A stretch of 35,321 nt of DNA from Terriglobales bacterium (lineage in GTDB: Bacteria; Acidobacteriota; Terriglobia; Terriglobales; Acidobacteriaceae): positions 1 to 35,321 of the forward strand of contig DASPRM010000017.1 in NCBI GenBank assembly GCA_035624455.1, given 5' to 3'. Positions within the stretch are counted from its first letter, which is position 1, and every line of letters begins with the position of its first letter. Position numbers and translations under genes: made by a program. Below, one piece after another: positions 15,305 to 18,002 of the stretch. Below the pieces are notes generated by a model. That model ran no database searches, was not told the DNA's origin, and worked only from the letters and a program-made list of their open reading frames with translations.

Positions 15305-16093
15305 CTAGGCGTAATGTTTCGCGCGGGTAGTTATCAGAGAGCGCTGCAAAAAATCCTGAATTCGTTCACGGAAGCTTCGGCTCAGCGATAGCTCCTTACC
15401 ATTCCGCAGCACCACGATGTACTCCCCATTGTTACAAGGTTGGAGCTCCTTGATTTTCTCCACGTTTACGATAATCGATCGGTGGATGCGCATGAACCGC
15501 TCTCTGTCCAGGCGAGCCTCGAATGAGGTCATAGTCTCGCGCATAAGGTACGCTTCCTGCCCGGTGTGAATGCGAACATAATTGGCAGCGGCTTCGACCC
15601 AATCTATTTCCTCGCTCTTCAGAAATACCACGCGCCCACCGGACTTGATGACGAGACGATCCGACTCGTTTTGCGGCTTGGCCTCGTGCAGTATGGAGAG
15701 CAGTTTCCCCGCCAGTTCTCCACTGCGCGAGTGATCCAGCTGAGTGCGGGCTCGTTGGATGGACTCGTGAAATCTTTCTTCATCAAACGGCTTCAGCAGA
15801 TAATCCAGAGCGTGCGCATCGAAAGCCCGAATCGCGTAATGATCATAGGCCGTCGTGAATATCACGACGGGAATATCCTGCGGTTCGATTGCTTTCAGAA
15901 CCGCAAACCCGTCGGCCTCAGGCATCTCCACGTCGAGGAAGAGGACGTCGGGCTTCAGATCCCGGATCGCGGCGATGGCTTCGTTGCCCTCTCCAAATTC
16001 CCCAATCACCTCGAAATCTTCCTCTTTCGCCAGAAGGCGGCGAATTCGTTTGCGTGCCAAAGGCTCGTCGTCTGCAATGACAGCTCGGATCAT
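15305..16093 (-). CDS. LytTR-type response regulator
   Basis: A 262-residue regulator: CheY-like receiver (about 1-120) with acidic pocket DDE at 8-10, phospho-acceptor D54 (LFLDVEMPEADG), and switch residues T/Y/K (IFTTAYD, LLKPF). The C-terminal LytTR DNA-binding domain covers about 150-250 (VEAAANYVRIHTGQEAYLM, FMRIHRSIIVNVEKI). LytTR proteins (AlgR, AgrA, LytR) bind direct repeats of about 9 bp spaced by two helical turns. The start overlaps the stop of the histidine kinase gene by 4 bases (ATGA), so they are co-translated. Direct repeats at 17321-17351 upstream of the kinase gene are candidate target sites. Confidence 0.9.
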   Translation of the reverse strand: MIRAVIADDEPLARKRIRRLLAKEEDFEVIGEFGEGNEAIAAIRDLKPDVLFLDVEMPEADGFAVLKAIEPQDIPVVIFTTAYDHYAIRAFDAHALDYLLKPFDEERFHESIQRARTQLDHSRSGELAGKLLSILHEAKPQNESDRLVIKSGGRVVFLKSEEIDWVEAAANYVRIHTGQEAYLMRETMTSFEARLDRERFMRIHRSIIVNVEKIKELQPCNNGEYIVVLRNGKELSLSRSFRERIQDFLQRSLITTRAKHYA

Positions 16094-17247
16094 GGTCTGA
16101 CCTCTGCCGGTATTGGACGCACGGAATCCGGGATCGTTACCTCACTTTCTTGGGGTGATGTCTGTGATTCGCCATGGAACGGCAGCGTAATGCGAATTTC
16201 ACAACCACCCTGGGCGGGAGTGCGAATCTCAAAAGTATGCATTTCCGGATAAAGCACCTGAAGGCGGCTGCGGGTATTTGCCAACCCCACTCCCCCATTC
16301 AACTTGGCCAACTTCTCAGCTTGGATACCGGGACCATTGTCCGCCAAAATGAGGTGCAAAAAGTACCCCGTCCGATGACTGCGAATGGTGATGGTCCCCT
16401 TCCCAGCACGCTTCGCGACTCCATGTCTGACGGCGTTCTCCACCAGCGGCTGCAGGAACATGTTGGGAACCCGCGCGTCCAGCGTCTCGGGATCGATATC
16501 AAAAAGCACGCTCAAGCGGTCCTGGAAGCGTGTGCGTTCGATCTCCAGGTAACCCTCCAGGAACTCCAGTTCCTGCTTGAGCGGAATTTCCTGGGCGCCT
16601 CCGGTCTCTAGCGTCAGGCGCAGCAGTTCGCTCAGCCGAATAATCATCCGGTCAGCAGCCGCCAGGTCCTGGTGCATCAGTTCAGAGACCGAATTCAGAG
16701 TGTTGAAGAGGAAATGCGGATGTAGCTGAAACTTAAGCACCTCCAGCTGCGTTCGCGCCAACTTCGTTTCCAGCAGAGAGGCCTTAAGCTCGCGATCCCG
16801 GTACTTCTGGTAGTAGGCCCATCCCAAATTCAAAAGCAGAACCACCCAGTACATCCATATGTCGTCGAACCCGTTAGAGTAAAAATAGGCCCGCCAAAGC
16901 ATGAAACTCACCGGATCGTTAGCCTTGGGATAGACCCAGTGATGAGTCGGCAGGCGAAGCGCTGCGCTGACCGATGCCAGGCCTACACTGAACAACAGAT
17001 GCAAGCCGATCATGTTGGGCCAGTTGCTGCGCTCGATTCGGAATTTTCGTCCCAGCCAAAGCACGATGGGAGTGAATAGAGCTCCCCAAGTCAGATACTC
17101 CACCATGGGGCCGTGAGCAACCTCCCAATACGTAACCTTTTTCCCCCAATCAATTGACATGTGATAGGAGAAGAAAGTTCCGATCGCGCCAATGCTTACC
17201 CAGGCAACGACCCCCAAAATCCATTTAGCGAATGTCTTGGGCTGCAT
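16090..17247 (-). CDS. LytS/YehU-type sensor histidine kinase
   Basis: A 385-residue membrane kinase. Four hydrophobic segments occupy about residues 10-165, then a His_kinase domain (LQLHPHFLFNTLNSV; phospho-acceptor about H178) and an ATPase domain with N-box PLVENAVRHGV, G-box DNGPGI and GGVGLANTRSRLQ. There is no extracellular sensor domain, so the signal is probably sensed within the membrane or by short loops. The start follows GAGGCCAG. It is the first gene of the two-gene operon with the LytTR regulator. Divergent from the P460-like gene with a 221-base gap carrying AlgR-like repeats. Confidence 0.9.
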   Translation of the reverse strand: MQPKTFAKWILGVVAWVSIGAIGTFFSYHMSIDWGKKVTYWEVAHGPMVEYLTWGALFTPIVLWLGRKFRIERSNWPNMIGLHLLFSVGLASVSAALRLPTHHWVYPKANDPVSFMLWRAYFYSNGFDDIWMYWVVLLLNLGWAYYQKYRDRELKASLLETKLARTQLEVLKFQLHPHFLFNTLNSVSELMHQDLAAADRMIIRLSELLRLTLETGGAQEIPLKQELEFLEGYLEIERTRFQDRLSVLFDIDPETLDARVPNMFLQPLVENAVRHGVAKRAGKGTITIRSHRTGYFLHLILADNGPGIQAEKLAKLNGGVGLANTRSRLQVLYPEMHTFEIRTPAQGGCEIRITLPFHGESQTSPQESEVTIPDSVRPIPAEVRP

Positions 17248-17320
17248 CTGGCCTCTTGTCGCGTGAATTTGAACATCAAGTTACAACGAATTGTCGAATA
17301 CAGAGAATGGCACCGCGGCA

Positions 17321-17351
17321 TTCGTCCCAGTCAGTCCCGCGTTTCGTCCCA
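17321..17351 (+). promoter_or_regulatory. Direct repeats, candidate LytTR/AlgR-type binding sites
   Basis: TTCGTCCCA occurs at 17321-17329 and again at 17343-17351, 22 bases start to start, with a third imperfect copy TCAGTCCCG at 17331-17339. Two-turn spacing of 9-bp direct repeats is the hallmark of LytTR operators, and GCATTCGTC and CGTTTCGTC each match 7 of 9 bases of the AlgR site CCGTTCGTC. They lie 74 bases upstream of the kinase start and 118 bases upstream of the P460-like start. Confidence 0.5.
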
Positions 17352-17468
17352 ATGATATTGCCGGAGTCTGGTAAGAAGGAGAAAATCGCCGACAAATATC
17401 GCTTCCCTTCATGGTGGGTGGTCGGCTTTTTCATGATGAGATTTGCCGATTGGCGAAGGAGCAGGCAC

Positions 17469-18002
17469 GTGAAACGTTTTTTCCTCTTTTTCTTCGCAGT
17501 TGCCGCAGCGGTTGGAACTGGGTGGGCACAGCCCCGGATTCATTCCTTCCATCCTCAGTTTACAGATCAAAAAGAATTGCTGCTGCCCGACACCTATCGG
17601 CAATGGGTCTCTGTCCCGGGAGAGACGCGACCTGACTGCGCTCCATCAGCCACCTTCGCCGCTAGAAAACACTCATTCATCGACCATATTTACATTGAGC
17701 CATCTGCTTACAAATATTACCTGGAAAACGGCGATTGGCCCGACAAAGCCGTGATCGTGATGGAAGTCCGCAAACCGCGGCAGGAAAGGTCCACGGCACG
17801 CAGCTCGCCTTCTAAGTTGGTGGCATTGGAAGTCGCGGTGAAGGACGAAACCGATTCCGACCATTGGTCATATTTCGCGCATTTTTCCAAGACCTCGGCA
17901 GAACTGCCTGAGGCCCAGCCCGAGACCATCCTTGCGCACTCCCATCCCACACTCCGGGCAGTGATCGAAGGCCGCGTGCCGATCATGGACACCTTCTTTT
18001 AG
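17469..18002 (+). CDS. Secreted cytochrome P460-like protein lacking the heme motif
   Basis: About 177 residues from GTG at 17469, chosen because AAGGAG lies 7 bases upstream and the start gives a clean signal peptide (KRFFLFFFAVAAAVGTGWAQ). The frame stays open upstream to 17232 but that would overlap the kinase gene. The mature part follows the cytochrome P460 pattern: LLLPDTYRQWVSV, HIYIEPSAYKYYLENGDWPDKAVIVMEVR, LVALEVAVKD, HWSYFAHF. P460 proteins normally have CxxCH near the C-terminus; here that segment reads ELPEAQPETILAHSHPTL and the only Cys is elsewhere (DCAPS). No other reading frame restores CxxCH. It is probably a periplasmic P460-fold protein without covalent c-type heme. Its role is unknown; the LytTR repeats suggest a link to the neighbouring two-component system. 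Confidence 0.6.
   Translation: MKRFFLFFFAVAAAVGTGWAQPRIHSFHPQFTDQKELLLPDTYRQWVSVPGETRPDCAPSATFAARKHSFIDHIYIEPSAYKYYLENGDWPDKAVIVMEVRKPRQERSTARSSPSKLVALEVAVKDETDSDHWSYFAHFSKTSAELPEAQPETILAHSHPTLRAVIEGRVPIMDTFF

Follow-up and report, generated by a model that had tools for sequence, protein, structure and literature searches.

Two half-sites of the form TGGGACGAA[A/T], lying 22 bp, or two helix turns, apart beside a LytS-type sensor histidine kinase gene, probably serve the adjacent LytTR response regulator as its operator; the regulator would thereby control its own kinase–regulator operon and perhaps a divergent P460-like gene as well; we put the probability of this reading at about 0.75. Sites of this type are well known, and the window (the whole stretch of 35,321 nucleotides analyzed here, from a Terriglobales bacterium) most likely provides a new example that is ordinary but solid. 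Because most occurrences of the motif are oriented toward the kinase, the best explanation appears to be autoregulation, exerted by the adjacent LytTR regulator, and given that one site lies between both genes, joint control of the P460-like gene is possible.

The proposed mechanism would begin with phosphorylation of the LytTR regulator by the LytS-type kinase, after which a dimer of the phosphorylated protein would bind both half-sites, on the same helix face, as a tandem repeat; the dependence on phosphorylation and the dimeric mode of binding are both what the family would lead one to expect. The bound regulator would then control its own kinase–regulator operon, most likely through positive autoregulation, a sign likewise taken from the family, and the regulator HdrR is described as an activator of its own operon (PMC6193735). 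The divergent P460-like gene, 118 bp off on the other side, may share control from the same site. The repeat, its place in the gap and the return of the half-site with its 21–22-bp spacing before related kinases are observed, whereas we infer binding by this particular regulator, the positions of the promoters, and any effect on the P460-like gene.

The repeat and the genes around it

The gene calls hold for all three genes. The LytS-type kinase (385 aa; 16090..17247, minus strand) carries His_kinase (PF06580) and HATPase_c domains, and its gene is the likely target of the predicted operator. The LytTR response regulator (262 aa; 15305..16093, minus strand), which joins a receiver domain to a LytTR domain and whose gene has a 4-base overlap with the stop of the kinase gene, is likely to be the protein that binds the candidate operator. 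Its sequence FMRIHRS agrees with FhRhHRS, a motif described for LytTR domains (PMC4227749). Comparison of the whole regulator with solved structures matched receiver domains, and comparison of its LytTR part gave a weak match to 3d6w, the rest of the list being mostly chance matches to zinc fingers. The P460-like gene (177 aa; 17469..18002, plus strand), a possible second target, has a GTG start; its product matches Cytochrome_P460 (Pfam PF16694, 44 bits, cut-off 27) and by eye has a hydrophobic, signal-peptide-like N-terminus.

The gap of 221 bp that separates the kinase ATG (17247) from the P460-like GTG (17469) contains the word TTCGTCCCA twice, at 17321–17329 and 17343–17351, with 22 bp from start to start and 13 bp between the copies, and the 22-base period reported earlier is thus exact. 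Read on the minus strand, the distal half-site (17342..17351) is TGGGACGAAA toward the kinase (TTTCGTCCCA on the plus strand), and the proximal half-site (17320..17329), 22 bp from it and ending 73 bp from the kinase ATG, is TGGGACGAAT toward the kinase (ATTCGTCCCA on the plus strand). When offsets of 10–60 were scanned across the gap, exact 9-mer direct repeats were found at offset 22 alone, and such a repeat with a spacing of 21 or 22 bp arose in 7 of 5000 dinucleotide-shuffled versions of the gap. A LytTR-type operator should directly precede a −35 element; a scan for sigma-70-like promoters over 17200–17520, on both strands, found nothing.

A third, degenerate copy between the outer two had also been described, and it is present (TCAGTCCCG, 17331..17339), at distances of 10 and 12 bp from the copies on either side. 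Its role as a half-site was rejected, offsets of 10–12 around the motif not being enriched in relatives: partners in the central position number 3 at offset 10 and 1 at offset 12, the window's own included, against about 1.6 expected per absolute offset. An exactly paired site in another genome, G121, has no central copy, and the one in the window is probably non-functional as a half-site.

Likeness to known LytTR operators

The site has the build of LytTR-type operators, consisting of two exact 9-bp direct repeats with 13 bp between them (the rule being 11–13), placed 73 bp upstream of a kinase–LytTR operon, in a motif that recurs with relatives of the system (13 of 109 regions, with a peak of partners at 21–22 bp) and is absent in G015. 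The LytTR rule is elsewhere given as 9-bp repeats with 10–13 bp between (PMC11347149). The AgrA P2/P3 operators and those of HdrR and BrsR in S. mutans are described as two 9-bp direct repeats with 11–13 bp between, upstream of the regulator's own operon (PMC6193735, PMC4227749), and the window resembles them in having paired 9-bp repeats before such an operon. In these accounts, however, the half-sites are of an ACC type, for example ACCACTTAT, whereas the window has GGGACGAA[AT] and no promoter found in the scan.

A match to LytTR/AlgR operators had been claimed in the preliminary description, of which the LytTR-type spacing stands, and the AlgR likeness is limited to TTCGTC. The AlgR box of Pseudomonas aeruginosa has the core CCGTTCGTC (PMC4064291), whereas the two copies in the window read GGCATTCGTC and CGTTTCGTC, so that TTCGTC (on the opposite strand, the core GACGAA) is what both have in common; the flanks differ, with CCG before the core in AlgR and GTCCC[AG] after the core in the window. 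Since AlgR sites are described as not necessarily direct repeats 12 bp apart (PMC4064291), the paired architecture points to LytTR operators in general, not to AlgR.

Other comparisons concern the proteins. BtsS/BtsR and YpdA/YpdB couple a LytS-type kinase to a LytTR response regulator, as here, but the kinase and the neighboring genes are unlike those of the window, and the likeness rests on the proteins and not on operator sequence. Among NCBIfam models the regulator scored best against BtsR, at 185.1 bits where the equivalog cut-off is 246, and next against LytR (155.8 bits, cut-off 375), both being under the cut-off. RcoM and CoxC are similar in that LytTR domains bind spaced direct repeats, but they are described as one-component CO sensors with three TTCNNGCA-like repeats (PMC11347149). 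The LytTR Regulatory System (LRS), described as a regulator without a receiver domain together with a non-kinase membrane inhibitor (PMC6193735), was rejected as the identity of the window's system, in which receiver and kinase domains are present.

The sequence [CT]GGGACGAAT with a period of 21–22 bp offers a testable half-site consensus for LytTR systems of Acidobacteriota and of some Pseudoxanthomonas. Literature searches on LytTR, Acidobacteria and P460 listed no described operator for these groups, and a search with the half-site words gave no LytTR-operator title among the matches listed, a search of this kind being too coarse to exclude the motif in print.

Recurrence of the motif beside related kinases

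Kinase relatives with a full N-terminal part numbered 125 and gave 123 upstream regions of usable length, or 109 non-redundant regions once 14 duplicates were dropped; the relatives searched came from genomes outside the window's own genus. With no motif set in advance, the commonest 8-mer in these 109 regions was GGGACGAA, the reverse complement of the window word, in 13, followed by CATGCATC in 12 and GGACGAAT in 11. Direct repeats of at least 9/10 were found at offset 21 in 10 regions and at offset 22 in 3, and the other 33 offsets within 11–45 averaged about 1.2, none of them exceeding 4. In an earlier set of 106 regions the counts had been 11 at offset 21 and 4 at offset 22, with lesser peaks at 15 (6) and 39 (5), and the interiors of the kinase genes, taken as a control, gave a codon-period pattern with 4 regions at offset 21 and up to 9 at 36.

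The same spacing emerges from the word itself. Twenty GGGACGAA seeds on either strand, picked regardless of spacing, had same-strand partners of at least 6/10 in 13 cases at 21 and 4 cases at 22, compared with 0.82 per signed offset, and as pairs of two seeds count twice these correspond to 12 and 2 distinct pairs. An inverted-repeat reading was rejected, inverted partners of these seeds at 21 or 22 numbering none. A refinement by PWM had been trained on spacings of 21/22, which makes its spacing spectrum circular, and it was set aside. The longer word GGGACNAAT was counted 13 times in 27,359 bases of upstream sequence and 3 times in the 534,293 bases elsewhere (111 loci, redundancy kept), and the half-site conserved here has GTCCC[AG] after the core.

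An exact GGGACGAA or its complement is present in 16 of the 109 kinase-upstream regions and missing from the other 93, and its carriers, among them three Pseudoxanthomonas records and one Terriglobia MAG, are patchy on the kinase tree (13 changes). In the 16 loci the word reads toward the kinase in 13, the window being one of these, and away from it in 3. The autoregulation suggested earlier is thus likely, on the strength of the recurring motif, its partners at 21–22 bp, the pair in G121 and the 13/16 kinase-ward orientation.

Several features of these loci may be recorded alongside. To the eye, the Pseudoxanthomonas loci appear to have a TAGGAT element in common, located downstream of the site. 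In Myxococcus dinghuensis (L065) a pair of TTCGTCCC words 21 bp apart precedes a kinase relative, one of them inside CCGTTCGTCCC, which includes the AlgR core. In some relatives an N-terminal DUF1272 is fused to the LytS-type kinase (L032 1–1425, minus strand; L008 1186–2658, plus strand), and in G025 two kinase-like matches share one 848-codon open frame (L006 1483–4026, minus strand), possibly a fused or duplicated kinase.

The preliminary description had proposed a conservation check in which genomes that retain the operon but have lost the repeats would count against the operator, and this check went against it. The nearest kinase relative (L003 of G015, support 100/96) keeps the kinase, the regulator and the P460-like gene, and nothing comparable to the repeat was found at its locus. 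In other LytTR operons the half-sites are described as diverging readily, with low conservation and conserved spacing (PMC6193735), and divergence of this kind would soften the absence in G015 as counter-evidence, though it would not remove it. The same absence, together with the 155 of 5000 shuffles in which some exact 9-mer repeat arose at offsets of 10–60, is what speaks for the repeat being a functionless coincidence, but motif and spacing recur in relatives and the exact pair is found again in G121, and of the explanations weighed here we give chance the least credence.

Exact pairs of the form TTCGTCCCA-N11-14-TTCGTCCCA occur in 2 of 200 genomes, namely the window's own, where there is a single such pair, and G121, where the copies have 13 bases between them and are flanked by a divergent kinase relative (E ~1e-69) on one side and by a gene for a LytTR regulator on the other. 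The search elsewhere in the genome that had been advised returned the window pair as the sole match at spacing 22 with up to 3 mismatches, a reversed control pattern giving 3 matches at spacing 22 and 3 mismatches; at spacing 21 it returned 4 matches with up to 3 mismatches, all inside long open frames. Given that the pair is the only one at spacing 22 and that the matches at spacing 21 fall in open frames, this consensus reveals only a local regulon, and a genome-wide regulon was rejected, the genome being without a second convincing site at 3 mismatches and either spacing.

The same results bear on whether the repeat is bound by some other transcription factor and not by the adjacent LytTR regulator. 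The genome has two further LytTR genes (on contigs C52 and C103), and one motif could be common to many LytTR paralogues, but in Acidobacteriota as well as in Pseudoxanthomonas this motif recurs beside this kinase–regulator pair, and the window's own genome yielded no other good site, which makes another binder very unlikely. The adjacent LytTR regulator is preferred.

Beyond the exact pairs, up to 2 mismatches across 160 genomes gave 11 sites, spread over 10 genomes, where the control gave 4. With the window's own site and that of G121 set aside, the other 9 look like chance, because there is no kinase or regulator relative within their 1.5-kb flanks. A search of 12 genomes, 11 of them chosen since relatives had already been found in them, most with the motif, gave 22 sites against 9 for the reversed control. 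Seven of these adjoin a kinase relative, in part a consequence of how the genomes were chosen; 14 fall within long open frames, a criterion of little force where DNA is GC-rich; and one, in an intergenic region, precedes a gene resembling those for outer-membrane receptors (L250, in G009). The last is a degenerate tandem site with 3 mismatches (L250 1432–1462), before a gene for CarboxypepD_reg plus an outer-membrane barrel, and about 6 kb from a kinase-linked site on the same contig (G009:C126).

The P460-like neighbor and a second kinase clade

A search of 120 genomes gave P460 matches in 42. In 9 of 30 P460 loci, the window's own included, a kinase relative is divergently adjacent (a count that rests on these 30 loci, 13 further matches having been left out), and a tenth divergent case (L227/G384) was found from the kinase side. 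On the kinase tree 8 of the 10 P460-linked loci group in another part, and the window and G015 account for the remaining two. The linkage of a P460-like family to a two-component system may provide a handle on what these kinases sense. The CXXCH heme attachment motif is kept in 28 of the 30 P460-like relatives and is absent from the proteins of the window (17469–18002) and of G015 (L144 1426–2010).

All eight loci of the second clade have a different repeat, GCAG-N17-GCAG (a 21-bp period), 57–58 bp upstream of an ATACT element, after which the P460-like ATG comes within 9 bases. The pattern was chosen once seven of the eight sequences had been seen, and across all loci it has a background of 232 occurrences in 1.0 Mb, a figure that covers both strands and includes overlapping loci. 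The half-site there, GCAG[CT]GAATCG, resembles GGGACGAATCG and reads toward P460, and we infer that the GCAG repeat is a candidate LytTR operator for P460 in that clade.

It might be asked, then, whether the repeat in the window serves mainly the divergent P460-like gene, with the kinase–regulator operon transcribed from an independent promoter. The divergent P460–kinase arrangement in 9 of 30 loci favors this, as does the GCAG repeat in all eight second-clade loci, whose distance is near the −60 given for AgrA repeats (PMC4227749), and directly downstream of the window repeat a P460-ward hexamer pair can be picked out by eye (TTGCCG-17-GAAAAT, 17358–17386, plus strand, 4/6 and 4/6). That pair, however, is below the threshold of the promoter scan, the GCAG pattern was selected after the fact, G015 keeps a P460-like neighbor and has no repeat, and the window motif reads away from P460, and toward the kinase where the same motif occurs without P460. 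An operator mainly for P460 is accordingly improbable, and autoregulation of the kinase–regulator operon is the preferred reading. The earlier suggestion that the P460-like gene is controlled from this site is plausible; what speaks for it is indirect, namely the repeat before P460 in the second clade, and the kinase-ward direction of the window motif speaks against it.

A broader proposal, which we regard as speculative and unlikely, is that Acidobacteriota possess a conserved divergent module in which LytS/LytTR would be coupled to a secreted P460-like protein via a shared LytTR tandem-repeat operator. The partner without a c-type heme motif, in the window and in G015, would now serve the sensor outside the cytoplasm, as an accessory or a signal-binding part, and would no longer be a cytochrome, and the sequence and orientation of the operator would have shifted between clades with the 21–22-bp architecture kept. 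In the second-clade loci (L130, L133, L139, L140, L141, L143, L145 and L227) the ATACT element stands 4–9 bases before the P460-like ATG, as in leaderless transcripts.
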